Origin: Blastococcus sp. PRF04-17
GTDB lineage: Bacteria; Actinomycetota; Actinomycetes; Mycobacteriales; Geodermatophilaceae
Assembly (NCBI RefSeq): GCF_023016265.1
Contig: NZ_CP095412.1
Location: 1,426,001 to 1,490,000 of the forward strand
DNA: 64,000 nucleotides
Direction: 5' to 3'
In this document: piece by piece, positions 41,206 through 64,000 of the stretch
Position numbering within the stretch: position 1 is the first letter of the stretch
How the letters are laid out: each line of letters opens with the position of its first letter
Notes under the pieces: model-generated
What the model was told of the DNA's origin: nothing
Seen by the model: the letters and a program-made list of their open reading frames with translations, nothing else
Database searches by the model: none
Translations under genes and position numbers: made by a program

Positions 41206-42054
41206 TCACGGGCACGTGCCGGGCCGTCGGCGGATCGCGCGCTCGACGACCGCCAGGTTGACCGCCCAGGCCGGCGGGTGACAGATCGGGCCCTGCCGAG
41301 GCTCCTCAATCCTTGCCTCGCGCCAGAACCGCTCCAACGCAGCGTTGAACGGCTCGCCTAGGCGCTGGACCGCATGGCCCGCACCGCGGATCACGGCGCG
41401 CACGGCATGCGGTGCGAGTTCTTCGGCGAGGGCGTCAGCGCACGCCTCGAAGAGCCGCGCGTGCCCGCCGCTGACGATCAGGATCGGCGTGCCCGCGTCA
41501 CGCAAGGTGAACAGCGGCAGCTCCGCCGTCCACGGCGGCCGCTCACGCATGGTCAGCTCCACCAGCCGACGCATGCTCGGATCGAGAGGGATGCGTTGGG
41601 CGGGGGCGCCGAGAAAGGCCTGGAGGAACGCCGGCAAGAACTCCTCCGGTGAAGCGACCCGGCGCAGCTCCTCGAACGCTTCCATCGCCCTCAGCGCCTC
41701 CGCGTCCGAGGCGAGGAGCTGGTAGGCAGGTGGCTCCACCAGGGTCAGCGTGGCGACGAGACCCGGCCGCTTCGCAACGGCGAGCAGGGTGCCGATGCAG
41801 CCGTAGCTGTGCGCAACAACGTGCGTGGGCGCGTCGATCAGCTCGGCGATGTCCTCGGCGTCGGCCGCGAAGTCGTTGCCTTCGGCCGGAGGACTCGGCG
41901 GCGTGCCCCGGCGGGCGGGCAGGACCATCGTCCACCGCTCAGCGAGAGCAGCTTGGCGGCTCCACGTCCGGACGGGATCGGACATGGTGCCGTGGACCCA
42001 CAGCGTCCGGGGACCGCACCCCTCGGTCCGCACGTGCAGCGGCAGAGGAGTCAC
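41206..42054 (-). CDS. Alpha/beta hydrolase
   Basis: 282 aa. TLWVHGTMSDPVRTW is the HG oxyanion region, VVAHSYGCIGTLLAVA carries the nucleophile (HSYG), and AVIRGAGHAVQRLGEPFN the catalytic His. An acid lies in the TPILIVSGGHARL strand region. GTG 42054 is 87 bases downstream of the aldolase gene on the same strand, so it may be the last gene of the catabolic operon, for example an esterase or enol-lactonase. Substrate unknown. Confidence 0.75.
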   Translation of the reverse strand: MTPLPLHVRTEGCGPRTLWVHGTMSDPVRTWSRQAALAERWTMVLPARRGTPPSPPAEGNDFAADAEDIAELIDAPTHVVAHSYGCIGTLLAVAKRPGLVATLTLVEPPAYQLLASDAEALRAMEAFEELRRVASPEEFLPAFLQAFLGAPAQRIPLDPSMRRLVELTMRERPPWTAELPLFTLRDAGTPILIVSGGHARLFEACADALAEELAPHAVRAVIRGAGHAVQRLGEPFNAALERFWREARIEEPRQGPICHPPAWAVNLAVVERAIRRRPGTCP

Positions 42055-42141
42055 AGCGGACCTCCGAACTCGGCCTTCCCCATGGTCTGCAGCTGCGGCA
42101 ACGGGGTGGCGGCGGACTCGCCACCACCCCGTTGCTCGGCC

Positions 42142-43182
42142 TCAGCGAGCGGCCGCCTCCGGGGTCCGCTCGCGTGCCCGCAGGTCGAGGGCGATGTCGA
42201 CGATCATGTCCTCCTGGCCGCCGACGAGACCGCGGCGGCCGACCTCGAGCAGGATCGAACGGACGTCGATGCCGTACTGCTTCGACGCGGCCTCCGCATG
42301 CCGCAGGAAGGAGCTGTAGACCCCGGCATAGCCAAGGGTCAGCGTCTCCCGGTCGACCTGGACTGGCCGGTCCTGCAGCGGGCGAACCAGGTCATCGGCG
42401 GCGTCCTGGAGGGCGAATAGGTCGCAGCCGTGCTGCCAGCCGTGCAGGTTCGCCACGGCGATGAACGGCTCGATCGGGCAGTTGCCCGCACCGGCCCCAT
42501 GCCCGGCCAGCGACGCGTCCACCCGGGTCACGCCCTCCTCGACCGCGACAACGGAGTTGGCCACCGCGAGCGACAGGTTCTGGTGGGCGTGGATGCCGAT
42601 CTGTGTGTCGGGGTCGAGCACGTCGCGGTAGGCCCGGACCCGCTCGCGGACGCCGTCCATGGTCAGCCGGCCACCGGAGTCCGTGACGTAGACGCAGTGC
42701 GCCCCGTAGGACTCCATCAGGGCGGCCTGTTTGGCGAGCTCGGACGCCGGGGCCATGTGGCTCATCATCAGGAAGCCGGAGACGTCCATGCCGAGGTCGC
42801 GGGCGGTGGCGATGTGCTGTGCCGATACGTCGGCCTCGGTGCAGTGGGTAGCCACCCGGATCGAGCGCACGCCGAGTGAGTAGGCGTGCTTGAGTTCGGC
42901 GATGGTGCCGATGCCTGGCAGCAGCAGGGTAGTGAGCACCGCGCGCTGGAGGTTGGCCGCGGCGGCCTCAATCCACTCCCAGTCGGAGTTGCTGCCGGGC
43001 CCGTAGTTCAGGCTGCCGCCGGCCAGGCCGTCGCCGTGCGCGACCTCGATAGCGTCGACGCCGGCGGCGTCGAGCGCGGCGACGATCTTTCCGACGTCGG
43101 TAGGCGAGATGCGGTGCCGGACGGCGTGCATGCCGTCCCGCAGCGTGACGTCCTGGATGTACAGCTTGGGGGTCGTGGTCAT
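42142..43182 (-). CDS. mhpE: 4-hydroxy-2-oxovalerate aldolase
   Basis: 346 aa. [15 protein letters not shown] carries the catalytic R and metal-ligand D of HMGL-type aldolases. Others are [31 protein letters not shown] (metal His pair) and [19 protein letters not shown]. Splits 4-hydroxy-2-oxopentanoate to pyruvate and acetaldehyde, which channels to the dehydrogenase partner. ATG overlaps the mhpF stop. Final step of meta-cleavage. Confidence 0.95.
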
Positions 43183-44144
43183 GCCGTCACCTGCGCAGCA
43201 GCTCGTCGGGCACTGGTCCCAGTGGCCAGGCTCTCGCCGACCCGCAGGGCCGCCGAGGTCATGATGTCGAGGTTGCCCGCGTAGGCGGGCAGGTAGTGGG
43301 CGGCGCCCTCGACCTCGAGGAACACCGTCACCTTGGTCGTCACCGGACCGGCGCCGTCGGGCAGCAGGGTGTGCACCGGTTCGCCGTCGGCGATGGGGGT
43401 GAACTGCACCTCCTGCTTGAGCCGGTAGCCGGGCACGTACTCGGCGACGTCCTTGGCCATCCGGGCGATCGAGTCGCGGATGGCGTCGTGGTCGGCGTCG
43501 CCGATCAGGCAGAACACGGTGTCGCGCATGATCAGCGGAGGCTCGGCCGGGTTGAGCACGATGATCGCCTTGCCGCGGCCGGCGCCGCCGACCGCCTCGA
43601 TGGCGTGCGCGGTGGTCTCGGTGAACTCGTCGATGTTCGCCCGGGTGCCTGGGCCGGCGGACTTGGATGCGATCGAGGCGACGATCTCCGCGTAGGGCAC
43701 CGGGGTGACCCGGGCGACGGCGGCCACCATGGGGATGGTCGCCTGCCCGCCGCAGGTGACCATGTTGACGTTGGTCGCGTCCTCGGCCAGGTGCTGGTCG
43801 AGGTTGACCGGCGGGACGACGTACGGGCCGATCGCCGCGGGCGTCAGGTCGACCAGTTTCTTGCCGTACGGCGCGAGCTTCTCGGCGTTGGCGAGGTGGG
43901 CCTTGGCGGAGGTGGCGTCGAAGACGATCTCGATCTCGTCGAAGCCGTCCATCGCGATGAGGCCGTCGACGCCCTCGTGCGTGGTGGGCACCTTCATGCG
44001 GCGGGCGCGGGCCAGTCCGTCGGAGTCCGGGTCGATGCCGACCATCGCCCCCATCTCCAGCGCGTCGGAGTGGCGGATGACCTTGATCATCAGGTCGGTG
44101 CCGATGTTGCCCGAACCGATGATGGCGACCTTGGTCTTGCTCAT
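43179..44144 (-). CDS. mhpF: Acetaldehyde dehydrogenase (acylating)
   Basis: 321 aa. Rossmann start [28 protein letters not shown], and the catalytic Cys131 in [14 protein letters not shown]. It also has [22 protein letters not shown] and [22 protein letters not shown]. Converts acetaldehyde, NAD+ and CoA to acetyl-CoA in a complex with the aldolase. ATG overlaps the hydratase stop (ATGA), so mhpD-mhpF-mhpE are translationally coupled. Confidence 0.95.
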
Positions 44145-44968
44145 GCCTGGTCCTTTCCAGAGAAGGTGGCGCTGACCGATCCGAGGGGACCGACGTCCGC
44201 CGTCACGACCGAGCCGGGCGGCGTGGCCACCATGGGTCCGAGTGCCCCCGAGAGGACGACCTGTCCGGCACGCAGCGGGTCGCCCAGGTCGCGAGCGGTC
44301 CGAGCCAGCCAAGCCAGGGCGTTGAGCGGATCTCCCAGGCAGGCCGCGCCGCTGCCTTCGGAAACCAAGTCACCGCCCAGTCGCATCGCCATGCCGACCT
44401 CGACCGGCTCGAACTCGTCCAGGGTCAGCCGCCGCTCCCCCAGCACGAACAGCCCGCTGGAGGCGTTGTCGGCGACGGTGTCGCCGAAGGTGATGTCCCA
44501 GCCGGCGATCCGGCTGTCCACGATCTCCAGTGCGGCGACGGCGTAGGCGACCGCGCCGCGCACCTGCTCGGCGTCCAGCGGTCCGTCGGCCAGGTCCGCA
44601 CCGAGCACGAAGGCGATCTCGGCCTCGGTCTTGGGCTGCAGCAGCCGGTCCGAGGGGACCTCGGGGAGGTCGCTGACGTCCATGTCGGCGAAGAGGACGC
44701 CGAAGTCGGGGCGGTCGACGCCCAGCTGCTTCTGCACGGCCGGCGAGGTGAGGCCGATCTTGCGGCCGACGACGCGCGCGCCGCCGGCGAGCCGGGCGTC
44801 GGTGAGGCGCTGCTGCACGGCGTAGGCCAGGTCGACGTCGTCAGTACCGATCAGGTCGCGGACCGGGACGCAGGGAACGCCGGTCTGAGCGGCGGTCTGC
44901 AGCCGCTCCGCGGCCTGCGTGACGACGTCCCGCTGGGTCGAGACGGACGGTGTGCTTGCGTGAGTCAT
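44141..44968 (-). CDS. mhpD: 2-keto-4-pentenoate hydratase
   Basis: 275 aa. [49 protein letters not shown] (metal Glu pair), [24 protein letters not shown] and [26 protein letters not shown] are the family motifs. Hydrates 2-hydroxypenta-2,4-dienoate to 4-hydroxy-2-oxovalerate. GAGGG ribosome site. It lies 28 bases after the IclR gene. Confidence 0.95.
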
Positions 44969-44996
44969 TGCATCCCTCGGGGTTGGCGCTGTGTCT

Positions 44997-45820
44997 TCAC
45001 GATGGCGGGAGTCGGCCGGCTGCCCCTAGTGCGGCGTTCGGCTCAGTGGAACGTCGGGCGAGAATCGACCCGACACCCGCCGCCGCAGCCCGGACGGCGG
45101 TGGTGGCCGCTTCGGGCCGGAAGCGGGGAACGGGGCCGGTGATGCTGATCGCGCCGACCGGCTGGTCGAGCGGATCGAGGATCGGCGCCGCGACGCAGGC
45201 GATGCCGACCGCGGACTCCTCGTGCTCGAACGCGACCCCCGCTTCCAGGATGCGTTCCAGCTGCCGTCGCAGCAGACCGGGGGCGGTGATGGTCCGGGGG
45301 TGCGCCGCGGAAGGCCATCGGCCACGACGTGGGCGAAGAGCTCCGCCGGCGACCAGGCGAGCAGTGCCTTGCCGATGGCGGTGCAGTGCAGCGGCATTCG
45401 GCCACCGACCCGCGAGGGGGCGTCGGCCTGCCGGTGGCCGCCGATCTTGGCGACGTAGACGACGCTGTCCTCGTCGAGCACCCCGAGGTGGACGGTCTCG
45501 TGCGTGCGCTCGTACAGGTCCTCCATGAACGGGGTGGCGATCTCCAGGAGGTCCCGTTCCATCGAGGCCCGCATGCCGAGTTGGAAGACGCGGTTGCTCA
45601 GCCGGTAGCCGTCGTCGCGGCGGTCCAGCAGGCGGGCGTCGACCAGATCGGCTACGACGCGGTGGAGCGTGCCCTTGGCGATCCCGGTGCGCCGCGCCAG
45701 CTCGGCCAGGGGGACGCCCTGATCGTCGGCACGGAAGGCGAAGAGGACGGCGACGACCTTGCCCAGCACCGTGTTGAGGTCCACCGTCGGCTCGTGCGCC
45801 GCCAGCCCACCTAGGGCCAT
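44997..45820 (-). pseudogene. IclR-family transcriptional regulator, one frameshift
   Basis: About 274 aa with one base restored in GGGGG at 45307-45311. HTH: VVAVLFAFRADDQGVPLAELARRTGIAKGTLHRVVADL. Effector domain: METIATPF-like LLEIATPFMEDLYERTHETVHLGVLDEDSVVYVAKIGG, RMPLHCTAIGKALLAW, then after the shift GIACVAAPILDPLDQPVGAISITGPVPRF. It sits inside the operon between the Liv genes and mhpD, so it probably senses a pathway aromatic. GAGGAGG ribosome site before ATG 45820. Confidence 0.8.
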
Positions 45821-45894
45821 CGGGTCCTCCTCTCGGGGGCCGAGCTCGATCGAGGGGGTGACCCGGCGCCGGAATGGCGCCGGGTCACCGTGCG

Positions 45895-47148
45895 TCACTC
45901 GAAGCTGTAGCTCTCAGCGCTGGGCCCTTCGAAGGTCGTCAGCATGCGCAGACCACCTGGCACTGCCTCATCGACCTTCGTGACGTACACAGTCCGGAGC
46001 GGCGGCTCGCCGACCTCGGTGTAGTCGACAGGGGCGGGGTAGAGCCCCTCCAGGTCGAGATCGGCGGTCTCCCGCATCGCGGTCACGACGCCCTCCGGAG
46101 TCAGGTCCCCGGCGTCGCAGGCGCGCTCGATGGCGTCAGCGAGCAGCTCCGCCTGGGCGTAGGCGAGCGGAACCTCCCAGCCCTTGGCGCCGTCGGGCGC
46201 GACCTCCTCGTACAGCGCGGTCGCATCCTGCACCCCAGGCTCCTCGGCCGCGTAGGGCGCGATGCTCTGGACCGTGTACCCGTTCTCGATGAGCGCCGGG
46301 CCCGCGGGGGTGTTCAGCAGCGCCGGGTTGAAGGCAGGCGTGTTGCTGAGGATCGGCACGTTGACGTCCAGAGAGGCGAGCACACCGGCGATCGAGGCCA
46401 GTTGCGGAGGAGCCGCCGCGACGATCACAGCCGAGACACCTGCCTGCTGGAACGCCGCCGCCTGCGCCGACAGGTCGGTGTCTCGTGGAGTGATCTCCTG
46501 GGAGACGATTTCCAGCCCGCGCTCGTCGGCCGCGTGCTGGGCCCCTGCCAGGGAGTCGCCGCCCAGGTCGCCGACGAAGTAGACGACCCCGACGGTGTCT
46601 CCCTCAGTGAGCCCGAGTTCGTCGACGAGGTAGTCGATGGCATTGGCACCTTCGACGCTGTACGTGGCACCTGGGATCTGCGCGGTCTCGTAGGGAAGTG
46701 TGGAACTTGCCCACCCCATCCCACCGACGTAGACGCGGTCCTCTTCGGCAAGGGGCATGACCGCCGGGACGATCGGCGAGCCCTGTAGCTGCTGGAACGC
46801 CAGCACGTTCGGCTGCATGCTGCGGTACAGCGCTACTGCCTTCTGCGGGTCGTAGGCGTGGTCCTGCACGTCGACCTCGACGGATCGCTCACAGATCCCG
46901 CCGTCCTCGTTCCGCGCATCCCAGTACGCCTGGGTCTCAGCCACCATCACCTCCGACGCGGCGGCGAACGGACCCGTCAGGTCGGTCAGGAAGCCGATGG
47001 TGATGGTGGAGTCGCTGACACCGTTGCCGGTCGCGACGTCGCCGCCGGCTGCGCCATTCCCCTCCGAGCCAGGCGCGGTGGTCGAGCAGGCGGTCAACGC
47101 AGCGAGGCAGCTTGACGCCACCAGCAGCGATCGGGTGCGGTGCTTCAT
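45895..47148 (-). CDS. Branched-chain-amino-acid/aromatic-type ABC substrate-binding lipoprotein
   Basis: 417 aa. Signal peptide with lipobox LAALTAC. Peripla_BP_6 fold: ITIGFLTDLTGPFAAASEVMVAETQAYWD, ICERSVEVDVQDHAYDPQKAVALYRSM, GVVYFVGDLGGDSLAGA, GVSAVIVAAAPPQLASIAGVL. Such LivK-like proteins in catabolic clusters bind aromatic acids or amides rather than leucine. Start overlaps the permease stop (ATGA). Confidence 0.9.
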   Translation of the reverse strand: MKHRTRSLLVASSCLAALTACSTTAPGSEGNGAAGGDVATGNGVSDSTITIGFLTDLTGPFAAASEVMVAETQAYWDARNEDGGICERSVEVDVQDHAYDPQKAVALYRSMQPNVLAFQQLQGSPIVPAVMPLAEEDRVYVGGMGWASSTLPYETAQIPGATYSVEGANAIDYLVDELGLTEGDTVGVVYFVGDLGGDSLAGAQHAADERGLEIVSQEITPRDTDLSAQAAAFQQAGVSAVIVAAAPPQLASIAGVLASLDVNVPILSNTPAFNPALLNTPAGPALIENGYTVQSIAPYAAEEPGVQDATALYEEVAPDGAKGWEVPLAYAQAELLADAIERACDAGDLTPEGVVTAMRETADLDLEGLYPAPVDYTEVGEPPLRTVYVTKVDEAVPGGLRMLTTFEGPSAESYSFE

Positions 47149-48322
47149 CGGGTCGTCTCCTTCGACGAGGTAGGCACGCCGGCGGCGCGCGGATCGTGGG
47201 TGGTGCCGTCACCGGCCACGTGGGGTGGAACCGCCGGGTGCGGTGCCGGCGCGGTGAAGTCGTCGCGGTCGGGGGTCGATAGCCGCGCACGCCGTCGCCT
47301 CAGCGCGCCGGCGAGACCTCCCCGAAGGAAGAGGAGGACGGCGATGATCGCGGCGCCGTAGAGGAACCGGGCGAGCGTTGCTGCATCCAGCCCGCCGGTT
47401 CCCGGGGTCGCCAAGAACGGGAGATCGCCGCTGTACTGGGTCAGGATCAGAGGGAGTGCCGCCACGAAGACGGCCCCGGCCGCGGCACCGCCGACGGATC
47501 CGAGCCCGCCGATGACGATCATGACCAGGAAGTCGATCGACAACTGCAAGGCGAAGACATCGGGCGAGATGCGCGTGTAGGCGAGCGCCAAGAGGACGCC
47601 TGCCACACCGGCGTAGGCGGACGAGATGACGAACGCGGTGGCCTTGGCGCGGGCCACGTGAATGCCCATCGCCGCCGCAGCGGTCTCACTGTCCCGGACA
47701 TTGGCCAGCGCACGACCGGTCCGGCTCGCCTTCAGGTTGACGGCGATCCACGCGGACAGGAGCGCAACGCCCAGGAACAGGTACCAGAGGCGGTGCAGAC
47801 CGGTGAACTGGACACCCGCGATGGCAAGGAAGTCTGGATCGCGGTTGCTGAAGCTGAAGCCAGGGACGGAGAAGGGCTGGACCCCGCGCCCGTTGAACCC
47901 CCGCTGATGCCGTCGAGGTTGACGATGAGGTGTCGCGCTAGGAAGACCAGGCCGAGGGTTGCGAGCCCCAGATAGATGCCTCGCAGTCGTCCCGCGATAG
48001 GGCTGAACAGCGCACCAGCCAAGGCTGCGGCCGATGCCGCGAGAACGAACGCGAGCAACGGTGGAAGGCCGAGCCCGGGTACTGGAGCGTCGGCTTCGCC
48101 AGCAAGCCAGGCGTACGTGAAGGCGCCGACGGCTGCGAAGAACGCGTGGCCGAGCGACAGCTGGCCGGCCACGCCGACGAGCAGGGTGAGACCGATCGCT
48201 CCGACGATCGCGGCCATCGCGAACAGCCCGGTCTGGAGCCAGAAGCCGTCAAGCACGAACGGCAGGAGGATCGCGACAGCTAGCAGGGCAAGTGTCGCCC
48301 CGCGGCGGATGGCGTTAGACAC
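47145..48322 (-). pseudogene. livM: LivM-type ABC permease, one frameshift
   Basis: About 392 aa with a base restored in CCCCC at 47898-47902. N-terminal frame: ALLAVAILLPFVLDGFWLQTGLFAMAAIVGAIGLTLLVGVAGQLSLGHAFFAAVGAF and LRGIYLGLATLGLVFLARHLI. C-terminal frame: LWYLFLGVALLSAWIAVNLKASRTGRALANVRDSETAAAAMGI with the EAA-like loop, then SIDFLVMIVIGGLGSVGGAAAG. Ends in a long hydrophilic tail. Start GTG 48322 overlaps livH by 8 bases. Confidence 0.85.
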
Positions 48323-49205
48323 GGACGGCCTCCTTGCGACCGAAAAGACCCGACGGTCTGACGAGGAGGACAAGGATCATGACGGCGTAGGGGACGACCT
48401 CGCCGAAACCCTGACCGAGGAAGTGCAGCTGGGCTTCGTAGCCGATGGCCAGGGAGCTGGCCACGCCGATGATGAGGCCCCCCACGATGGCTCCCGGCAC
48501 GGAGTCGAACCCGCCGAGGACCCAGGCGGGGATGGCCGCCAGAGCGCTCAGGGCGAGGGAGGGCGCGACACCGGGAGCCGGGAACGAGGCAAAGAAGATC
48601 CCCGCGATGGCCGCCAGAGCGCCGGCCAGTGCCCATCCGGTGGTCCCTGTCCTGGACAGGCGGATGCCCATGAGCGACGCCGTGTCACCGTCCGCCGCAG
48701 CTGCCCGCATGGCCACGCCGATCCTGGTCCGGGCGAAGAGGAACCAGAGGAGCGCGAAGACGACGAGAGCGACTCCGGCGGCGATCAGTCGACTCGCCGG
48801 CAGGGTGACTCCGCCCCACCGCACCGTGTCGGCACCCCACGGTGCCCCGATGGGAAGGATGTCGTTGCCGATCTGTCGGGTCAGCTCGGTCAGCAGAAGG
48901 ATGTCGACACCCAGCATCAGGATCGCCGCGGTCGCCGGTGTGGGCTCGGCGAGGTTCCGTACGAGCACGGTGTTGACGAGAACGCCGAGAGCGGCAGAAC
49001 CGAGGATGCCGATCACGGCCGCCACCCAGAAACCGGTGTGGGGCTGAAGTACCGCGACAATGTAGGCACCGGCCAGCAAGACCGAGCCGTGGGCGAAGTT
49101 CAAGACGCCGGTGGACGTGAAGACGATGACGAAGCCGACCGCGATCAGACCGAGGATCAGGCCGATGGACAGGCCGTTCGCCAACTGCGTCAGGAAGTAG
49201 CTCAT
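48315..49205 (-). CDS. livH: LivH-type ABC permease
   Basis: 296 aa, eight hydrophobic segments: LANGLSIGLILGLIAVGFVIVFTSTGVLNFAHGSVLLAGAYI, and the docking loop ARTRIGVAMRAAAADGDTASLMGI, then AIPAWVLGGFDSVPGAIVGGLIIG. This is the LivH signature. ATG 49205 overlaps the fused ATPase stop (ATGA). It pairs with the LivM subunit. Confidence 0.9.
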   Translation of the reverse strand: MSYFLTQLANGLSIGLILGLIAVGFVIVFTSTGVLNFAHGSVLLAGAYIVAVLQPHTGFWVAAVIGILGSAALGVLVNTVLVRNLAEPTPATAAILMLGVDILLLTELTRQIGNDILPIGAPWGADTVRWGGVTLPASRLIAAGVALVVFALLWFLFARTRIGVAMRAAAADGDTASLMGIRLSRTGTTGWALAGALAAIAGIFFASFPAPGVAPSLALSALAAIPAWVLGGFDSVPGAIVGGLIIGVASSLAIGYEAQLHFLGQGFGEVVPYAVMILVLLVRPSGLFGRKEAVRV

Positions 49206-50889: not shown

Positions 50890-50901
50890 CTAGCATGCTA
50901 G
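50890..50901. promoter_or_regulatory. Operator CTAGCATGCTAG (site 1)
   Basis: Perfect 12-bp palindrome 111 bases upstream of the livFG start. Two near-identical copies lie upstream of the other two catabolic operons. Read on the minus strand it is preceded by GTGACC..CATTAC, as is site 2. Predicted binding site of the GntR regulator at 57031. Confidence 0.7.
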
Positions 50902-55676: not shown

Positions 55677-55705
55677 TGCGGGTCCTCCGGTAGGTGGGGT
55701 GGGGT

Positions 55706-56779
55706 TCAGGCGCGGGCGAGGATGGACGAGCCGATGTCGTTGATGTCGCGCTCGGCGGTGTACGGGTTGGACAGGAAGACCTGAACCAGGTCGACGCCGG
55801 ACTCGGTCATCAGCTGCGCCTTCTCCAGCAGCTCGTCGGGAGTGCCGTAGAGGCACCAGTAGTCGACGAGCTGCTTGGTGATCAGCGGCCGGTGTGCGGG
55901 GGTCAGCCCGCGCAGGTACTGCTTCCACACGTCGAGGTAGTGCGGGCGGTCGGTGGCATTCGGGTCGCCGAGGTAGGCCATGGCTGCCTGAGTGGAGGCC
56001 TGCACGATCTCCTCGCCGAGCTCGTCGACGTGCTGGTTCATCAGACCCACGTTGGTCAGGCAGGAGCTGATCGGACCCGAGCCGAAGCCCTTGTCAATCC
56101 CGTCCTCCCAGGTCTCGCCATCGCGCAGCTGGTAGAACCAGGCGAGCCCACAGAGCTTGACCGAGCCCGCCGGGCGGCCCGCGTCGGCGACGGCCTTGTC
56201 CAGCTCGCGACGGATGAGGCCGATCATGTCGGGGTTGGGACCGAGGCAGTAGACGACCACGTCGGCGTACTTGGCGGCCTCGTGCAGACCCTTCGGGCCG
56301 CCGGCGGCGACCCAGATTGGGACGCGGTCCTTGATGTTGTACCAGCCGGCGTCGGGGTCCAGGAACTCGATCTCGCGCTGCTCGCCCAGCCAGTCGTGGA
56401 CCACGCGCTCGCCGTGCAGCAGTCCGCGCGACACCTCCAGGGCGTCGGTGAGCTCCTTGATGGTGGCGGTGCGGTGCCCCATGGAGCGCAGCGCGTTGTT
56501 GGCCGTGCCGATGCCGAGGAACGTCCGCCCCGGGGCGAGGGCGTTGAGCGTCGCGATCGAGTTCGCCGTGACCGGCGCGATGCGGGTCAGCGGGTTGGTC
56601 ACCTGGGTGCCCAGCTGGATCGTCGACGTCTGCTGGGACGCGATCGCCAGAAACTGATAGGGGTCGCTGAACAGCAGCGGCCCCTCACCGGCGCCGAAGT
56701 GGGTGACGCCGAGGCCTTCGGCCTGCTTCACCATCTCGATCTGGTCGATCTTGGCGCAGGTCCCGATCATGAAATCCAC
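55706..56779 (-). CDS. LLM-class oxidoreductase, probably F420-dependent
   Basis: 357 aa. MDFMIGTCAKIDQIEMVKQAEGLGVTHFGAGEG, STIQLGTQVTNPLTRIAPVTANSIATLNALAPGRTFLGIGTANNALRSMG (N-terminal F420/flavin phosphate region) and VPIWVAAGGPKGLHEAAKYADVVVYCLG resemble F420-dependent reductases and MER-like proteins. F420 use is supported by the co-operonic fbiC, npdG and fbiD. GTG 56779 preceded by AAAGGAG. First gene of the F420 operon. Substrate unknown; reduction or oxygenation of an aromatic or N-heterocycle are both possible. Confidence 0.85.
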   Translation of the reverse strand: MDFMIGTCAKIDQIEMVKQAEGLGVTHFGAGEGPLLFSDPYQFLAIASQQTSTIQLGTQVTNPLTRIAPVTANSIATLNALAPGRTFLGIGTANNALRSMGHRTATIKELTDALEVSRGLLHGERVVHDWLGEQREIEFLDPDAGWYNIKDRVPIWVAAGGPKGLHEAAKYADVVVYCLGPNPDMIGLIRRELDKAVADAGRPAGSVKLCGLAWFYQLRDGETWEDGIDKGFGSGPISSCLTNVGLMNQHVDELGEEIVQASTQAAMAYLGDPNATDRPHYLDVWKQYLRGLTPAHRPLITKQLVDYWCLYGTPDELLEKAQLMTESGVDLVQVFLSNPYTAERDINDIGSSILARA

Positions 56780-56907: not shown

Positions 56908-56919
56908 CTGGCATGCTAG
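56908..56919. promoter_or_regulatory. Operator CTGGCATGCTAG (site 2)
   Basis: Lies between the divergent LLM operon (start 56779) and GntR gene (start 57031), 111-129 bases from each, and can serve both. Differs from site 1 by one base. The surrounding GTGACC..CATTAC on the minus strand is shared with site 1. Confidence 0.7.
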
Positions 56920-57030
56920 CGTCGCAGCAGGACGGTAATGGGGGTCACATCCACTGGCAAGCCCCTGTCGTGTCCGGCTTTCCTGACTCCCAGGTGTGAG
57001 CACTTGGCTCGCCGCGAGAGGACGACGCTG

Positions 57031-57786
57031 ATGGACCACTACGCTCGACGAGTGCCAGCTGACGGAATCTCGCGCTTGCTGAGCGATGTCCCGTCGAGCG
57101 CCGCGACGGCCCGCCGGGGCATGCGCCTCGGATCGGTTGCCTACGAGCAGATCAAGGAACAACTGCTCGAGGGGCGCTGGGCTGCCGGAGAGCGGTTGTC
57201 GCTGGAGACGTTCAAGTCCCAGCTGGGGGTCAGCAAGCAGCCGGTCATGGAAGCGCTGCGCCGACTTGATGCTGACGGCCTGGTCGAGATCGTGCCGCAG
57301 GTCGGTTGCCGTATCGCGTCCTACTCACCGCAGGAAGTCGGCGACTTCTTCACCCTCTTCGCCGCGTTCGAGGGTGCGATAGCCGGAGTCGCGGCCGACC
57401 GGCGGACCGAGGAGGACCTCGTGACGCTGCGCGAGATGCACGGACGCATCGGCGAGTTGACGGATGAGCATGACGTCGGCGCTCGCGCGCACGGCTACCG
57501 GGTGCTGAACCGCGCGTTCCACGGCGTCATCCATCGAATGGCTCGTTCCAACCTCGTCGAAGAGATGAGCCTGCGCATGTGGGATCTCAGCGACTTCCTC
57601 ATCAACACGGCGGGCGTCCCCCAGCCGCTGGCCAGCGCCCTGGACGACCGGCACGCCGATCACGACGCGATCCTGCAGGCGCTGATCGCCGGCGACAGCG
57701 CGGCGGCCCGCGCTGAGATGGAGCGGCACATCCTCGGCACCGTGCAGATCATCGGCGACGAAGGACGATTGGCCGCCGGACAGTGA
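57031..57786 (+). CDS. GntR-family (FCD) transcriptional regulator
   Basis: 251 aa. The N-terminal winged helix is VAYEQIKEQLLEGRWAAGERLSLETFKSQLGVSKQPVMEALRRLDADGLVEIVPQVGCRIAS. The helical FCD effector domain has FFTLFAAFEGAIAGVAADR, NRAFHGVIHRMARSNLVEEM (metal-ligand His/Asn) and HADHDAILQALIAGDSAAARAEMERHI. Start ATG 57031 with GAGAGGA. Only plus-strand gene in the catabolic cluster, next to operator site 2, so it is the best candidate for the regulator of all three operons. Confidence 0.9.
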   Translation: MDHYARRVPADGISRLLSDVPSSAATARRGMRLGSVAYEQIKEQLLEGRWAAGERLSLETFKSQLGVSKQPVMEALRRLDADGLVEIVPQVGCRIASYSPQEVGDFFTLFAAFEGAIAGVAADRRTEEDLVTLREMHGRIGELTDEHDVGARAHGYRVLNRAFHGVIHRMARSNLVEEMSLRMWDLSDFLINTAGVPQPLASALDDRHADHDAILQALIAGDSAAARAEMERHILGTVQIIGDEGRLAAGQ

Positions 57787-57858
57787 ACTGCCGCTCCGCC
57801 CTGAACCGACGGCTGGCACCGGCAGTGATTCGAGCCATGGAGATTCCCGCGCCGGTGC

Positions 57859-57895: not shown

Positions 57896-57932
57896 ACAGC
57901 CTGCTGCGGTCGCGGGGACGCGCCGCACAAGA

Positions 57933-58874
57933 TCAGTGCAGTGTGACCGTGGTGAGCCCGAAGCCCGCGATGAGCTCCCGGATAGGCCGGTAGTAGCTGT
58001 ACTGGACCGTGTACCGGCCAGTTGCACCGAGGGCGGCGTAGCCGGCGATCCAGGTCCGGACCTCGTGTGCGGAGTTTCCGGCGATCCGGGTCATCTCGTC
58101 CGGAGTCCACGCGTCGAGCGGGGTGAGGTCACCCGAGGCGAGGATCTTCAACAGCTCCTGGTCCCACTCGGGCGCGAGGTCCTGGATCGTCGCCGTGCCG
58201 GCGGCGAAGTCCCGGGCCGCGGCGATGACGCGCTGCTGGCGCATTTCGCGCGCATCCGGCGGGAGGGGCTGCCCCTCCCCCATCAGCATGCGGCGCTGTT
58301 CCGGCGTGGCGGTGGCCATCCGCGGTACGGGCGGGTCGTGTGACAGCCCGCCTGAAGAGATGAGCAGGACCTTCTGGTGGAGGGTCGCCAGGTGGCGGCC
58401 GATGGCCTCGCCGAGCAGGCGGACCCGCTGCACCGGGGTGAACGGCGGCGCGACCGAGTTGATGAAGATGGGCACGAATGGCTTGGCGGTGATGTCGCCG
58501 TACATGATCTCCATCGGTTGGACGGCGCCATGGTCGACCTGCATGTCGAGCGACACGGTCAGGTCGATGCCGTCGGCGAGCACCGCCTCGGCGATGCCGC
58601 GGGCCAGGTCCTCCGGTACGTCCAGCCGGCCGGCCTGGCTGCCGTAGTCGCCGATGCTCTCGGCGGCGTAGCCGATGCAGAACGGCGGCATCAGTCGGTA
58701 GAAGAAGCCGTTGTAGTGGTCCGGGCCGAAGTTGACGACCACATCGGGGTCGAACTCACGGACGAATCGGCGGGCCTCCTCGAAGGCCGCCTCGAGCTCC
58801 GCCGACACCTCGGCGTCCAACTCGGCGTGCTCGAGCAGCGGACTGTGGCTCATCGCCAGCAGGGCGAGCGTCAC
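57933..58874 (-). CDS. mhpB: Extradiol ring-cleavage dioxygenase (2,3-dihydroxyphenylpropionate type)
   Basis: 313 aa, LigB/class III. ALLAMSHSPLL carries the first iron His, VVVNFGPDHYNGFFYRLMPPFCIG the second His region, VDHGAVQPMEIMYG the catalytic His, and LLISSGGLSHDPPVPRM the acid/base region. MhpB-like over its full length. Cleaves a catechol at the meta position to a ring-fission product. GTG 58874 overlaps the upstream hydrolase stop. Aromatic side chain cannot be told from sequence. Confidence 0.9.
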   Translation of the reverse strand: MTLALLAMSHSPLLEHAELDAEVSAELEAAFEEARRFVREFDPDVVVNFGPDHYNGFFYRLMPPFCIGYAAESIGDYGSQAGRLDVPEDLARGIAEAVLADGIDLTVSLDMQVDHGAVQPMEIMYGDITAKPFVPIFINSVAPPFTPVQRVRLLGEAIGRHLATLHQKVLLISSGGLSHDPPVPRMATATPEQRRMLMGEGQPLPPDAREMRQQRVIAAARDFAAGTATIQDLAPEWDQELLKILASGDLTPLDAWTPDEMTRIAGNSAHEVRTWIAGYAALGATGRYTVQYSYYRPIRELIAGFGLTTVTLH

Positions 58875-59764
58875 GCGGACTCACCTCCCTGCGGCTGACG
58901 TCCGAGGAGGAAGTCGAGGTGGATGCGGTTGAAGGTCTCGGTCTGCTCGTACTGAGGCCAATGGCCGGCGTTTTCGATTACCGCCAGCCGACCATTGGGG
59001 ATGAGGTCGGCGATGCGCCGCCCCTCGTCGACCGGGCCCGAGGGGTCCTTCGTCGTCCAGATGACCAGCGCCTCGGCCTGGATGGAGCGCAGGTCGTCGT
59101 CGGTGAGCATGTTGCGCTTGCGGGTCTCCAGGTCCTGCAGCGCCATGTTCATCTCGCACGCCTTGAGCCAGTCCGGCTGCTGGAAGATCATCTGCCGGGT
59201 CCGGATCAGGTCGTCGGTGACCATGGCGGGGTCGGCCATGAGCCACTCCAGCCGGGCCTTGACCCGCTCCCAGCTGGGATCCTTCGCCGCTTCCATGGAC
59301 AGCGTGTAGAGCCGCTCCATCACCTTCGGGTTGGCCATGGTGCCGCCCATCGTGTTGAGCACGATGCGCTCGACCCGTTCGGGTCGGTCGATCGCGTACC
59401 GGGCCGTGACCCATCCGCCGAGGGACTCGCCGCTGAAGAACGCCTTCTGCGCACCCAGGGTGTCCAGGACATGGTCGACCTGGTCGACGTAGTGCGGGAT
59501 CTCCAGCGGGTGGTCGGGCTTGGTGGAGTAGCCGTGTCCGATGAAGTCGAGCGCCCAGACGGAGAAGTGCTCGGCGTGCGCGGCGAGGTTGCGCACGTAG
59601 GCCTCGGCGTGCCCGGTGATGCCATGAAGCAGAAGGAGGACCGGCTTCGACTCGTCCCCCGCGTGCAGGTAGCGCGTGCGGTACGGGCCCGCCTGCAGGA
59701 AGCCTTGGCTGAACTCGACCTGGTTCAGGTCGCTCCAGACGCTGGTGTAGGGGCGGTCGGTCAT
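58871..59764 (-). CDS. mhpC: C-C bond hydrolase of the meta-cleavage pathway
   Basis: 297 aa. LLLLHGITGHAEAYVRNL (HG), ALDFIGHGYSTKPD, FFSGESLGGWVTARYA (nucleophile GESLG), LVIWTTKDPSGPVDEGRRIADL (acid) and VIENAGHWPQYEQTETFNRI (His) give a full triad. MhpC/BphD-type enzymes hydrolyse 2-hydroxy-6-oxodienoates to 2-hydroxypentadienoate plus an acid. Overlaps both neighbours by four bases, so it is co-translated. Confidence 0.9.
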   Translation of the reverse strand: MTDRPYTSVWSDLNQVEFSQGFLQAGPYRTRYLHAGDESKPVLLLLHGITGHAEAYVRNLAAHAEHFSVWALDFIGHGYSTKPDHPLEIPHYVDQVDHVLDTLGAQKAFFSGESLGGWVTARYAIDRPERVERIVLNTMGGTMANPKVMERLYTLSMEAAKDPSWERVKARLEWLMADPAMVTDDLIRTRQMIFQQPDWLKACEMNMALQDLETRKRNMLTDDDLRSIQAEALVIWTTKDPSGPVDEGRRIADLIPNGRLAVIENAGHWPQYEQTETFNRIHLDFLLGRQPQGGESA

Positions 59765-61679
59765 CGGGCTCCTCCGGTGGCGTGCTCGGTGTCGTCGCGG
59801 TCGGCCGGCATGGCCATCGGCACGGTGATCGGGACTGCTTGGGTGCTGTACTCAGGGGTGTCGGTCTGCTTGCCGGACTGGGTGCTCACCGGTCGGCCGA
59901 GGACGGCGGTGAGCGCGTCCTCGAGCTGATGCAGAGCTTCGGCGTCGTCCCAAACAGCAGCGCTCTGTCGCCAGGCGACGTAGCCGTCGGGGCGAACGAG
60001 GATGGCACCAGCCTCGTCGATCTCACGAACGCGGTGCCAGTAGCCGTAGGGGTCGATGGTGCCGGGCTCGCCGACCACCACGGTGCGCAAGAAGGGCAGG
60101 TCTAGCTTCTGCGCAGCTCGCTTCCACGCCTGACCGGCGAGCCCGGTGAGCAGCGTCATCTGTCCCTTGCCGACGACGTCCAGGGTCGAGACGCGGATGC
60201 CGTCCGAGCCGACGAGCCAAGCATGGGGCAGCTTGGCGCCCGGACGGGTCCTGGCCTGCAGGTAGAGCTCGCGGTGGCGTGGCCACTCCTCCGTCCCGGC
60301 CGTCGCGTCAGGGACCACGGCGCCGGACTCGTAGCGCTGGTTGAGCTCCACGCCGTGCGCGTTGAACTCGGTGTTCTTCAGTTCCAGCGCCTCGTAGAGC
60401 CGCTCGCGGAGCGCTACACCCTCCGGGCTGGCCTCCTTCAGCTTGAGGAGTCCGTCCCGGACCGGGTCGTCGCTGTCACGGTCGAACCACTCGCGCAGTC
60501 CCGCATAGTCCTTGCGCGACTGATTGGCGCGGGCGACGACCTGCTTGCCGACCGGAACGCGTTCGGGGGTGTACGAGTCGAGCAGTCCTGGTCCGGCGTG
60601 CCCCTTGACGACGAAGGCCACCTTCCAGGCCAAGTTGAATGCGTCCTGGATGGACGTGTTCGACCCTAGGCCGCTCGACGGCGGGTGCCGGTGCACGGCG
60701 TCGCCGCCGCAGAAGACGCGGCCGACCTGGTAGTTCGTGGCGTGCTGTTGGTTGACGTACCACAGCGACTTGGTGACGATCTCGGGCTGCAGATCGGGGT
60801 CGCCGACGAGGGTGCGAATCTGTCCGATCACGACGTCGTCGCTCAGGTCCGGTTCACCCTTGGCCATGTCGAAGCCCCAGCCGGCGATCCACTCGGTCCA
60901 CGGCGTGACGGCCCGCAGCAGCCCCATGCCGATCTCGCCGAAGCCGGCCTTGGAGTTGAAGATCCAGTGCAGGATGCTCGGCCGGTGGGCCACGAAGCGG
61001 CTCAGGTCGGCGTTGAAGCGGATGTAGGCCGTCCCGGCGCGGGCCAGCTCCCCTCGAACGGCAGACCGATCTGCTCGGCGACCTTCGACTTGGCTCCGTC
61101 GAAGGCCAGCAGGTAGCGGGCGCGCTGCTCGAACAGCTGACCGGAACGCACATCGCGGAACCGCACCGTGACGCCGTCGGAGTCCTGCTCGTGCGAGAGG
61201 TACTCGGTGTGGAAGCTGAGCATCGCGCCGCGGCTGGCGGCGTTCTTGATCAGGAGCGGTTCCATGAGTGGCTGCGGAAGGTCGAGCATCGTGCAGGGGC
61301 TGCCCTGCAGGTAGTCCCCGAAGCGCAGATCACCGGTCCCCCAGGTCTGCAGACGAACGATCTCCTCACCAGCCAGGCTGGTGGTGAAGAGCGTGTCGCC
61401 CATCTGGTCCCACGGGGTGGCGTACTTCTGCGCCTCCTGCTCCACGCCGAGGTCGCGCAGAACCTCGACGGCCCGTTGGTTGGTGATGTGCGCCCGGGGG
61501 CCGTTGGCCACCCAGGGGAACATCGTCACGGCGTGCACGCGCACCCCGTACGTGGCCAGCGCCAGGGCCGCGGTCCCGCCGGCCGGCCCGAGGCCGACGA
61601 CGACGACATCGGTGTCGAATCCGCTGCCATCGTCCGGGAAGGGCACGAAGGCAGGCGGAGGAAGGGTCGTCTTGTCCAT
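59761..61679 (-). pseudogene. FAD-dependent aromatic hydroxylase (phenol/dichlorophenol monooxygenase-like), one frameshift
   Basis: About 639 aa with a base restored in CCCC at 61050-61053. VVVVGLGPAGGTAALALATYGVRVHAVTMF is the FAD site, GPRAHITNQRAVEVLRDLG and YLLAFDGAKSKVAEQIGLPFEG (DG motif) follow. After the shift comes VGRVFCGGDAVHRHPPSSGLGSNTSIQDAFNLAWK (GD motif). The C-terminal thioredoxin-like domain is typical of TfdB/phenol 2-monooxygenases. Hydroxylates a phenol to a catechol for the extradiol enzyme. First gene of its operon, behind operator site 3. Error in the read is more likely than decay. Confidence 0.85.
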
Positions 61680-61773
61680 GGCACCTTCTCAGAGCTTGGG
61701 AGGTTCGCCGGATCTCGGACTTTGAGAGGCCCGTCGGCTCTGCTGCGTGACCGCGGTCACCGCTGCTGGCATT

Positions 61774-61785
61774 CTGGCATGCTAG
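61774..61785. promoter_or_regulatory. Operator CTGGCATGCTAG (site 3)
   Basis: Identical to site 2 over 12 bases, about 95 bases upstream of the hydroxylase start at 61679 and just after the transporter permease stop. Places the hydroxylase operon in the same predicted regulon. Confidence 0.7.
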
Positions 61786-61843
61786 TACGTGTGATGCAAG
61801 GCACCTCGTGGGGCCGCTCAACGTGTAGGCGTCGCTCCCTGGG

Positions 61844-62638
61844 TCAGGCAGGGGCGGGCTGCCACCGGGAGAAGTAGGCCTGCACGCCGGCGAGGAGTCG
61901 GTCCACAGCCACCGCGATGACCACGGCGGCGAACGTGGCCGCCCAGACCACGTTGACGTCGAAGCTGTTCTGGCCCAGGACCATGAGATAGCCCAGACCG
62001 GAGTCCGCTCCGGTGAACTCGGCGACGATCGCGGCCTGGATGGCGAAACCGAACGTGATCCGAGCCGAGGTGCCGACCCAGAGCACGGCCGCGGGGAGAC
62101 GGGCGTCCCGGATGACCTGCCATCGCCCGGCGCCCAGCATCCGGGTGTGGTGACGGACGTCGGGATCGACGTCCGCAACCCCCGCCGCAGTGCTCACGAT
62201 GATCACGAAGACGATGACGAAGGCGACGTGCACCATGCGCGATGCCATCGAATAGCCGAGCGCGACCGCGAAGAACGGGTAGAAGACCAGGCGCGGGAAC
62301 CCCTGCCAGAAGGCGATGAAGGGCGAGAGCACCCGCCCGACTGCGTCGAACGTCCCGGCCACGGTGCCCACGAGGATCCCGATGACCAAGGCGAACCCGT
62401 ACCCGACCACAGTCGCCGTCACGGTGGTGACGGTGTTGCTCACGAGCGTGCCGTCCGAGAGCCAGGTGCCGATGTTGTCGAGGATCCGCGACGGCGTACC
62501 GACGATGAAAGCGTTGATAACTCCGGCAGTCGCCATCCACTGCGAGGCACCTAGGAGCAGCGCCACGAACGCAACCTGGGCGAGGACCATCCACAGGGCG
62601 CCGAGAGACCGGCAGCGCGGGGTCAGAACAGTCGCCAC
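61844..62638 (-). CDS. ABC permease, SsuC/TauC type
   Basis: 264 aa, six TM helices. The docking loop is HHTRMLGAGRWQVIRDARLPAAVLWVGTSARITFGFAIQAAIVAEFTGADSGLGYLM, diagnostic for nitrate/sulfonate/taurine-type permeases. GTG 62638 overlaps the upstream permease by 16 bases. Such importers in catabolic clusters carry aromatic acids, nitriles or pyrimidine-like molecules. Confidence 0.9.
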   Translation of the reverse strand: MATVLTPRCRSLGALWMVLAQVAFVALLLGASQWMATAGVINAFIVGTPSRILDNIGTWLSDGTLVSNTVTTVTATVVGYGFALVIGILVGTVAGTFDAVGRVLSPFIAFWQGFPRLVFYPFFAVALGYSMASRMVHVAFVIVFVIIVSTAAGVADVDPDVRHHTRMLGAGRWQVIRDARLPAAVLWVGTSARITFGFAIQAAIVAEFTGADSGLGYLMVLGQNSFDVNVVWAATFAAVVIAVAVDRLLAGVQAYFSRWQPAPA

Positions 62639-63438
62639 TGGGTGAACCTCCGCTCGACGTGGGCGAGGGCGCGATCGGCCAGGAGGGAGATGACGGCGAT
62701 GACCGTCGCTGCTCCCACGAGGAGGGCCGGGTCCCCGAGGATGTTGCCGCGGGTCAGGTAGGAGCCGAGTCCTTGTGAACCACCGAGGTACTCCGCCAGG
62801 GCCGCACCGAGCACTGCCCAGACCACGGCCAGACGCAGGCTCGTCATGAGCCACCCGGTGACCGCCGGCACGTAGACCGACCGGGCGAGCCAGCCTCGTC
62901 CCGCACCCAGGACCTTGGCGTTGTGCACGTACACGGTGTCGATGGAGGACAGCCCGCTGAACACGTTGAGGTAGACGATCAGGAAGATCAGCGAGGCAAC
63001 GAAGACGGCCGCCGACGTCGTTCCGATGCCGAACCACAGGATGAACAGCGGGGCCAACGCGATCCTCGGGACGGCGTTCGCGATCACGAGGAACGGCGCG
63101 ATGAATCGGCGGACCAGCGCGAAAGGCCACGTCAGCGCCACTGACAAGCAGGCCGATGACACCCCGAAGGCGAAGCCGACCGCTGCGCTGCGCACCGTAA
63201 TCCCCACGTCTTGCCAGAACAGCGGGTCGGTGACGAACAAGCCGAGCTGCCGGGTGACCAACACCGGCGAGCCGGTGATGGTCTCGACGACCGGCACCCG
63301 GTTGGCGGCCAGTTGCCACAGGCCGATCAGCCCACCCCACAGGAGCACCTGCGCACCGAGGATCCTGGCCGACTGGGGAATGGCCGGGCGCAGCCGAGCC
63401 GCCGACCCGAGTGCGGCGGGGGCGGTGGACGTCGTCAC
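62623..63438 (-). CDS. ABC permease, SsuC/TauC type (second subunit)
   Basis: 271 aa. ILGAQVLLWGGLIGLWQLAANRVPV, RIALAPLFILWFGIGTTSAAVFVASLIFLIVYLNVFSGL, and loop HNAKVLGAGRGWLARSVYVPAVTGWLMTSLRLAVVWAVLGAALAEYLGG. A pair of different SsuC-like permeases suggests a heterodimeric channel. GTG 63438 overlaps the ATPase stop. Confidence 0.9.
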   Translation of the reverse strand: MTTSTAPAALGSAARLRPAIPQSARILGAQVLLWGGLIGLWQLAANRVPVVETITGSPVLVTRQLGLFVTDPLFWQDVGITVRSAAVGFAFGVSSACLSVALTWPFALVRRFIAPFLVIANAVPRIALAPLFILWFGIGTTSAAVFVASLIFLIVYLNVFSGLSSIDTVYVHNAKVLGAGRGWLARSVYVPAVTGWLMTSLRLAVVWAVLGAALAEYLGGSQGLGSYLTRGNILGDPALLVGAATVIAVISLLADRALAHVERRFTQWRLF

Positions 63439-64000
63439 GAGGACCGTCCTGGCGCCGTGCCGGCATCGATCGGGGTCACCTGGTCGCGGAGGTCGCTCCA
63501 CAGCTGCTCGTGCATGTGCGTGAACTGCGGGTCGAAGCGCAGTTCGAGCAGATCCCGTGGGCGACCGAGAGGCACGGGCCGATCCGTGAGCACCGTGCCC
63601 GGGCCGCGGGTCATGGTGACCACACGGTCCGAGAGCCCGACCGCCTCCTCGAGGTCGTGGGTCACGAACACGACGGTCTGCCGCGTCTCCTCCCACAGTG
63701 CGAGCAGGTCGTTCTCCATGAGGTTCCGCGTCTGCGCGTCGAGAGCACTGAAAGGCTCGTCCATCAGCAGGACGCGGGGACGGAGCACCAGGCTGGCCGC
63801 GATGGCGACCCGCTTACGCATCCCCCCGGAGAGCTGGTGCGGGAAGGAGTCGTCGAAGCCCTGCAGTCCGACCCGGGCCAGCCATTCGCGGGCCTGGGCG
63901 TTGGCGTCCCGCTTCGAGGCCCCGCGGTAGCGCAGCCCGAGGGCGACGTTCTGCAGAGCCGTCTTCCAGGGAAGCAGCGCGTCCCGCTGGAAGACGAAGC
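63435..64000 (-). CDS. ABC ATPase, SsuB/TauB type (runs off right edge)
   Basis: C-terminal about 188 residues. Q-loop FVFQRDALLPWKTALQNVALGLRYRG, signature LSGGMRKRVAIAASLVLRPRVLLMDEPFSALD (Walker B included), and H-loop VVFVTHDLEEAVGLSDRV. Walker A is beyond the window edge. Completes a Tau-type importer with the two permeases; a substrate-binding protein is expected further right. Confidence 0.9.
   Translation of the reverse strand, partial: FVFQRDALLPWKTALQNVALGLRYRGASKRDANAQAREWLARVGLQGFDDSFPHQLSGGMRKRVAIAASLVLRPRVLLMDEPFSALDAQTRNLMENDLLALWEETRQTVVFVTHDLEEAVGLSDRVVTMTRGPGTVLTDRPVPLGRPRDLLELRFDPQFTHMHEQLWSDLRDQVTPIDAGTAPGRSS

Follow-up and report, generated by a model that had tools for sequence, protein, structure and literature searches.

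A meta-cleavage gene cluster of Blastococcus sp. PRF04-17 with its own F420-supply genes and a shared candidate operator

In the soil actinobacterium Blastococcus sp. PRF04-17, a 64,000-nucleotide stretch of DNA (the window; positions 1426001-1490000 of a single contig of 4,585,415 bases, NZ_CP095412.1) carries a gene cluster in which enzymes for meta-cleavage of aromatic rings lie next to an operon for coenzyme F420. This operon encodes, in order, an oxidoreductase of the luciferase-like monooxygenase (LLM) fold, an isochorismatase-fold protein, the FO synthase FbiC, the F420:NADP oxidoreductase NpdG and the guanylyltransferase CofC (FbiD). The three operons of the cluster are tied together by a shared 12-bp candidate operator that is unique in this genome by pattern, and the fbiC gene of the cluster is, by its sequence, an extra copy of its own lineage. 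We think it probable, judging from the genes encoded, that the three operons form an induced regulon, in which F420 supply would be raised while an F420H2-dependent reductase and its partner would feed a 2-substituted phenol to meta-cleavage.

Pfam and NCBIfam scans with curated cut-offs (in bits) confirmed the gene inventory, namely the hydroxylase, the dioxygenase, the C-C hydrolase, MhpD, MhpF and MhpE, two importers, GntR and IclR regulators and the F420 operon, and bore out the gene set and order LLM-isochorismatase-fbiC-npdG-fbiD that an earlier note on this DNA had described. FbiC scored 1473.6 bits (cut-off 1018), CofC 151.7 (105), NpdG 187 (149.8), MhpE 557 (286) and MhpF 464 (282). 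The MhpD-like protein matched Pfam FAA_hydrolase, and its best NCBIfam model remained under the cut-off (290 versus 350 bits). Further Pfam matches in the cluster were to LigB, Bac_luciferase, Isochorismatase, GntR with FCD, IclR, HMGL/DmpG_comm and a Liv-type importer. In window coordinates, the operator sites and the genes behind them are:

61774-61785, minus strand: operator site 1, CTAGCATGCCAG, 95 nt ahead of the hydroxylase start
59761-61679, minus strand: FAD aromatic hydroxylase, HbpA-like, in two frames (61002-61679 and 59761-60993) with a break near 61050
58871-59764, minus strand: C-C (meta-cleavage product) hydrolase, assigned by the Pfam/NCBIfam scan and solved relatives
57933-58874, minus strand: LigB-type extradiol dioxygenase, MhpB-like (Pfam LigB; match to 8k04)
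56938-57786, plus strand: GntR/FCD regulator, divergent from the LLM gene and its neighbour in 25 of 30 LLM loci
56908-56919, minus strand: operator site 2, between the GntR and LLM genes, 129 nt ahead of the LLM start
55706-56779, minus strand: LLM-fold oxidoreductase (Bac_luciferase), predicted to be F420-dependent, with a GTG start after AAAGGAG
55059-55676, minus strand: isochorismatase-fold protein, with His/His/Ser replacing Asp/Lys/Cys of the cysteine hydrolases
52384-54966, minus strand: second fbiC (FO synthase, CofGH fusion), over the FbiC cut-off
51662-52387, minus strand: npdG, F420:NADP oxidoreductase, over the NpdG cut-off
50976-51662, minus strand: cofC/fbiD guanylyltransferase, over the CofC cut-off
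50890-50901, no strand (perfect palindrome): operator site 3, 111 nt ahead of the likely ATG (50779) of the importer ATPase
45895-50779, minus strand: Liv-type importer, with a fused ATPase pair, two permeases (one frame-broken) and a binding protein
45026-45898, minus strand: IclR-type regulator, frame broken near 45300
44141-44968, minus strand: MhpD-like hydratase (FAA_hydrolase)
43179-44312, minus strand: MhpF-like acetaldehyde dehydrogenase, true start probably internal
42142-43182, minus strand: MhpE-like aldolase, over the MhpE cut-off

The candidate operator, a palindromic 12-bp sequence (CTAGCATGCTAG), was first noticed because the LLM operon and the importer-IclR-mhp operon have the same word in their promoters. 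Allowing up to two mismatches, it occurs four times in the window, against a mean of 0.75 in shuffled sequences, of which 1 in 100 reached four. Three of the four sites have at most one mismatch, and each of these precedes one of the three operons. The degenerate pattern CTAGMATKCYAG finds three sites in the window and, in the whole genome (4,585,415 bp), the identical three and no others; the reversed pattern, used as a control, had no match in this genome. In the region of the second importer, the stretch 62001-74000 (window coordinates) held no operator with up to two mismatches.

The degenerate pattern, which had been widened (M, K, Y) after inspection of relatives, was also applied beyond this genome. 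Eight sites were found in 112 genomes of the family, seven of them inside LLM/fbiC clusters: three in the present genome, two in Blastococcus tunisiensis DSM 46838 and one each in Geodermatophilus ruber DSM 45317 and G127. The eighth, in G121 (C4 60654-60665), is the only one in the 112 genomes to lie outside the LLM carriers. In 37 related loci (5 plasmid, 32 genome) we counted 52 sites, whereas 30 rounds of first-order Markov sequences gave 0.07 on average; at least one site was present in 31 of these loci and none in 6. When loci L022 and L122 and the window are added, 51 of 56 sites lie within 700 nt ahead of a recognised cluster gene (GntR, LLM, hydroxylase, HpaB, LigB, transporter, LLM2 or ribBA; 60 nt of overlap allowed). 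The regions of housekeeping fbiC genes (L002 and L024) contained no operator, even at one mismatch. We conclude that the case for the operator rests on where the sites are placed and not on their number.

Since a GntR gene adjoins 25 of the sites, we infer that the divergently coded GntR/FCD protein binds the operator. The operon of LLM2, a paralogue of the LLM gene, carries an exact operator in B. tunisiensis and in locus L054 and a one-mismatch site in G. ruber. In other relatives a ribBA gene (GTP cyclohydrolase II/DHBP synthase) is placed with the cluster and the operator, with an exact site in L046 (near 4828) and a one-mismatch site near ribBA in L021 (4325-5698) and L121. Because RibA feeds the precursor of FO, ribBA under the operator fits a cofactor-supply regulon.

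The F420 genes of the cluster are not the only copies in the genome, a circumstance that the earlier note had named as one that would undo its proposal. There is a housekeeping fbiC at 1748192-1750681, a further cofC at 4240221-4240786 that is split over two frames, and two more npdG matches over the cut-off. Constitutive expression of the cluster genes, also named there, is unlikely given the operator. The single cofD/fbiA gene is found at 3969818-3970744; with the FO-synthase, guanylyltransferase and recharging steps encoded in the cluster and fbiA elsewhere, the cluster must lean on outside FbiA (and presumably FbiB).

The LLM family was detected in 4 of the 112 family genomes (E<=1e-60), and cluster-type fbiC in the same four only, with identities to the window copy of 100, 84 and 82% and, in the metagenome-assembled genome (MAG) G127, a 202-residue piece. 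This piece shares 98% identity with the cluster copy of B. tunisiensis, 81% with that of the window and no more than 78% with any housekeeping row in the comparison; it lies on a different contig of the MAG from the LLM2 gene. The other full-length fbiC genes of the family are near 70% identical to the window copy, or 48-49% in three genomes. A second full-length fbiC also occurs outside the LLM carriers, in G034 and G134, each with two copies of housekeeping type. A tree of 39 fbiC rows places the three cluster copies in one clade, with a Shimodaira-Hasegawa-like approximate likelihood-ratio (SH-aLRT) support of 100, separate from the housekeeping clade of the family (SH-aLRT 99), which holds the window genome's own second copy. 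The tree was made by a quick method with SH-aLRT as its only support, from 9 of 27 Geodermatophilaceae housekeeping loci among others; rows had to reach 400 residues, and five that were duplicate or partial were excluded.

The earlier note had proposed a search for the same gene order in other actinobacteria, and this recovered the core of the cluster in many loci and F420 genes near few of them. The genome scan gave 30 LLM loci (32 less the LLM2 paralogue loci L051 and L054); because the fetched flank was at most 10 kb and many contigs are short, the counts are lower bounds. The isochorismatase-fold gene and the GntR gene were each present in at least 25 of them, LigB in at least 24 and the C-C hydrolase in at least 22. 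A hydroxylase was seen in 28, of HbpA-like type in 17 and HpaB in 11, with no locus having both. The cluster family occurs in many actinobacterial genera, with culture-collection numbers for several carriers; among the other 395 Actinomycetota sampled, no member of the LLM family was found at E<=1e-100, a limit that more distant paralogues could escape. Plasmids gave thirteen matches at >=70% identity, and the five examined (Rhodococcus, Gordonia) contain the GntR, LLM, isochorismatase-fold, hydroxylase, hydrolase and dioxygenase genes. On the R. oxybenzonivorans plasmid pRB98 (L020 26314-35658), microcompartment shell genes and aldehyde/alcohol dehydrogenase genes lie a few kb from the LLM cluster.

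Nearby F420 genes recur in a few lineages. B. tunisiensis and G. ruber share the order LLM2-fbiC-mhpD-mhpF-mhpE-cofC, about 10 kb from GntR-HpaB-LigB-LLM-isochorismatase-hydrolase, and in Kineosporia cofC lies between the isochorismatase-fold and hydroxylase genes. A Marmoricola MAG has the order LLM-isochorismatase-fbiC, with fbiC truncated at the contig end; a MAG can be chimeric. Since the Marmoricola fbiC is sister to another fbiC of that MAG (87% over 445 columns, SH-aLRT 100), it is probably a second, independent recruitment. An fbiC match (E<=1e-60) was obtained in all 30 LLM-bearing genomes, in some as fragments only; this is weak evidence, weakened further by matches in 252 of 396 sampled genomes of the phylum at E<=0.001 (123 over the cut-off), and we do not lean on it. 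Because neighbours recur across loci and the operator ties three operons, the association of the cluster genes goes beyond chance. The shared operator and the recurrence in relatives thus uphold the view that the F420 genes belong with the meta-cleavage genes.

The LLM protein is predicted to be F420-dependent from its nearest sequences and its modelled fold. It matched Bac_luciferase at 113.1 bits (cut-off 27.9), fell below the cut-off of the LLM family TIGR03842 (107.7 versus 295.45 bits), and gave a structure model with a predicted local distance difference test score (pLDDT) of 87.6. In a profile search of the PDB, the ten best of 12 matches were the F420 enzymes Mer, hydroxymycolate dehydrogenase, FGD and Adf; the twelfth and weakest was DszA, which uses flavin mononucleotide (FMN). 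Foldseek with the model placed F420 enzymes at ranks 1-21, and the first other hit, at rank 22, was SsuD, an FMN enzyme. An enzyme that uses FMN only, which would also have spoken against the earlier proposal, therefore appears unlikely.

These matches bear on the direction of the reaction as well. With FGD, Adf and hydroxymycolate dehydrogenase among them, and a zinc alcohol dehydrogenase gene in 12 of the 30 LLM loci, the LLM protein might instead be an F420-reducing dehydrogenase of the Adf/FGD kind that oxidises an alcohol or hemiacetal, NpdG then recovering NADPH from F420H2. We consider this unlikely: the best LLM matches are to Mer, which acts as a reductase in methanogens, and in picrate degradation the substrate is reduced by hydride transferases encoded in one operon with the F420:NADPH oxidoreductase (PMC5352752; this and the papers below are cited from parts of their text).

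The second gene of the operon encodes a protein of the isochorismatase fold (132 bits, cut-off 27; TM-score 0.93 to 3kl2), whose near folds are biuret, triuret and ureidoacrylate amidohydrolases, including RutB. Isochorismatase-fold cysteine hydrolases have a Cys-Asp-Lys catalytic triad. At these positions, taken from an alignment to BiuH and TrtA, the window protein has Ser, His and His; in the family alignment, Ser occupies the Cys position in 21 of 21 sequences, His the Asp position in 21 of 21 and His the Lys position in 19 of 21. The same Ser is carried by the substrate-bound crystallised forms C162S of TrtA (triuret hydrolase) and C169S of BiuH (biuret hydrolase). Assignment as a cysteine hydrolase was rejected with the loss of the triad. 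Because Cys-Asp-Lys is replaced, the partner may hydrolyse non-covalently or through serine/histidine, or it may be a helper protein. The earlier note had proposed an F420H2-dependent step and a hydrolytic step: the first accords with the nearest relatives of the LLM protein, whereas hydrolysis of the ordinary amidase type does not fit a partner without the triad. The same residues bear on the idea of an N-heterocyclic substrate, of the quinolone or pyridone kind, that the LLM enzyme would reduce and an isochorismatase of amidase type would then open. The amidohydrolases among the near folds speak for it, but the replacements at all three positions, with a Ser that in TrtA and BiuH belongs to the substrate-bound crystal forms, make it quite improbable.

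The meta-cleavage genes provide the set of an Mhp/Ohp-type pathway: a LigB-type dioxygenase, a C-C hydrolase and MhpD/E/F (the MhpD model being under its cut-off). An intact relative of the hydroxylase (locus L017), 78-84% identical to the window pieces, is closest to 2-hydroxybiphenyl 3-monooxygenase (HbpA). The dioxygenase is closest to 8k04, a 2,3-dihydroxyphenylpropionate dioxygenase (E=6e-96), and the best solved relatives of the C-C hydrolase are alkyl- and aryl-type meta-cleavage product hydrolases. Since the relatives of these three enzymes together ask for one, an ortho-substituted phenol is the pathway intermediate to which they point. This agrees with the part of the earlier proposal in which a phenol enters meta-cleavage, while its N-heterocycle finds no support in a partner without the triad. 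As the likeliest class of substrates we guess coumarin-like lactones giving 3-(2-hydroxyphenyl)propionate, which would fit the route, although the odds are against this guess.

Under the proposed regulon, the GntR/FCD protein would bind the three operators and be released by the substrate or an intermediate. Induction would raise the meta-cleavage enzymes together with the extra FbiC, CofC and NpdG, matching the F420 pool to demand; FbiA, from its one copy elsewhere, and presumably FbiB would complete the cofactor, which NpdG would charge using NADPH. The LLM enzyme would reduce a ring-fused (ortho-fused) substrate with F420H2, and the Ser/His/His isochorismatase-fold partner would open the reduced ring to a 2-substituted phenol. 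This would be converted by the HbpA-like hydroxylase to a 3-substituted catechol and cleaved by the MhpB/LigB-type dioxygenase; the C-C hydrolase would release the side-chain acid, and MhpD/E/F would yield pyruvate and acetyl-CoA. A fuller version, which we hold tentatively and at somewhat less than an even chance, is that beside a housekeeping FbiC the cell keeps a dedicated second one, of its own lineage and accompanied by CofC, NpdG and, in relatives, RibBA. This set would be induced with the pathway and would serve a novel ring reduction that depends on F420H2, after which a Ser/His isochorismatase-fold protein would open the ring.

Several observations weigh against this proposal. Within the fetched flank, fbiC was found in 1 of the 30 LLM loci and cofC in 1 of 30, and no F420 genes were found near the LLM cluster in the five examined plasmid loci; the fbiC genes of B. 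tunisiensis and G. ruber sit slightly beyond the flank fetched for their LLM loci. Because most LLM loci and the five plasmid loci show no nearby F420 genes, the conserved part is the reaction set, and F420 supply is a repeated local add-on outside this core. The operator count in relatives is partly circular, since the pattern was widened after they had been inspected, and in the 112 family genomes the reversed pattern gave 49 strand-matches, in 36 genomes, against 9 for the pattern itself; CTAG-rich words are rare in such DNA, which makes the reversed word an uneven control where numbers are compared. The C-C hydrolase resembles the CumD/HsaD/BphD type more closely than the MhpC entries, and HbpA acts on 2-hydroxybiphenyl, so that the side chain may not be propionate. 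Finally, the hydroxylase and two further frames are broken in the present assembly.

The scarcity of fbiC near the LLM gene in most loci would also suit another explanation, that the LLM protein is an FMN-dependent monooxygenase like RutA, itself an LLM protein, with a RutB-like partner, and that the F420 genes have no link to it and only travel on the same mobile catabolic island. The nearest folds of the partner include RutB, and a flavin reductase gene is present in 11 of the 30 LLM loci. However, 10 of these 11 loci also have HpaB, with which the flavin reductase appears to travel, and the partner is without the amidohydrolase triad. The nearest sequences and folds of the LLM protein are F420 enzymes, SsuD coming first among the others at rank 22, and the F420 genes belong to the same operator-preceded operon as the LLM gene and recur alongside its family. 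We regard this explanation as very doubtful.

The broken frames are those of the hydroxylase (near 61050), the IclR gene (near 45300, in three alignments) and the LivM-type permease (two frames). They are probably assembly indels, since the second cofC elsewhere in the genome is also split across two frames, although gene decay is an alternative. The LLM, isochorismatase-fold, fbiC, npdG, cofC, LigB and C-C hydrolase frames are open, and the npdG stop overlaps the cofC start. Two further features flank the genes listed above:

41206-42054, minus strand: alpha/beta hydrolase directly downstream of mhpE, which may be an esterase or lactonase of the pathway
61844-64000, minus strand: second importer, with a SaoP/NtrB/TauC-like permease and ATPase, continuing past the window end

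The sole tRNA found by ARAGORN in the window is a tRNA-Ser (CGA) at 10699-10788.

Catabolic operons that combine an F420 hydride transferase and an F420:NADP oxidoreductase are already known from picrate degradation. The npd operon for picrate and 2,4-dinitrophenol in Rhodococcus opacus and Nocardioides simplex has, like the cluster described here, an F420H2-dependent LLM-type hydride transferase and an F420:NADPH oxidoreductase in one catabolic operon (PMC8498797, PMC5352752). In the window, too, the LLM gene and npdG share an operon, co-transcription being judged from spacing. The npd operon, however, serves nitroaromatics, whereas the present cluster serves meta-cleavage ring opening and has fbiC and cofC in the operon. 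To our knowledge, the npd operon has no FO synthase or CofC. The ohp operon of Rhodococcus sp. V49, for 3-(2-hydroxyphenyl)propionate, resembles the cluster in having a monooxygenase, a hydrolase and a dioxygenase with a transporter and a regulator; we know of no LLM, isochorismatase-fold or F420 genes described in it. The substrate range of OhpB has been described (PMC6222606).

A route like the proposed one is encoded by the hcd genes of Pseudomonas mandelii 7HK4, by which the pyrone ring of 7-hydroxycoumarin is first reduced and the product is then hydroxylated, cleaved by an extradiol dioxygenase and split by C-C hydrolysis; there the reduction is carried out by an NADPH-dependent alcohol dehydrogenase, HcdE, and not by an F420 enzyme as proposed here (PMC7913881). 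For the actinobacterial FDR enzymes, a proposal of 2012 had F420H2 reduce coumarin ahead of melilotate hydroxylase and extradiol cleavage. The FDRs acting on coumarins and aflatoxin are FDOR enzymes, whereas the reductase described here is of LLM type and lies inside a catabolic cluster; among the M. smegmatis genes of the FDR kind, MSMEG_5998 was the only one predicted to lie in a conserved operon (PMC3288000).

F420 genes near catabolic genes are also found on plasmids. On Rhodococcus jostii RHA1 pRHL3 and Paenarthrobacter ureafaciens pCZY, fbiC is accompanied by cofC or by cofD plus a gene of the nitroreductase family, but the stretches examined contained neither meta-cleavage genes nor an operator at up to one mismatch. 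On pRHL3 (L123 11860-15076), fbiC-cofC lies beside an LLM gene, a flavin reductase gene, a mycofactocin-coupled short-chain dehydrogenase/reductase gene and a deazaflavin nitroreductase-family gene. The order on pCZY (L124 8863-13252), a conjugative plasmid from a nicotine culture, is nitroreductase family-cofD-cofGH, with adjoining catabolic genes. On a plasmid of Sphingobium TomTYG73 (L125 11884-15068), fbiC adjoins a citryl-CoA lyase gene, and similar matches occur in several related plasmids.

No description of a meta-cleavage regulon that brings along an FO synthase and a guanylyltransferase of its own, all under one operator, turned up in the open-licence papers searched, and the passages of PMC13101518 and PMC11852219 consulted say nothing on this cluster. 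Beyond nitroaromatics, the roles of F420 in Rhodococcus, Nocardia and Nocardioides are little known according to a 2021 review (PMC8498797). The cluster family points to a natural class of aromatic substrates as well as a defined reductase gene, and with three operators at hand the idea of a regulon can be tested directly. The cluster further suggests that the supply of F420 can be regulated and tied to a pathway.

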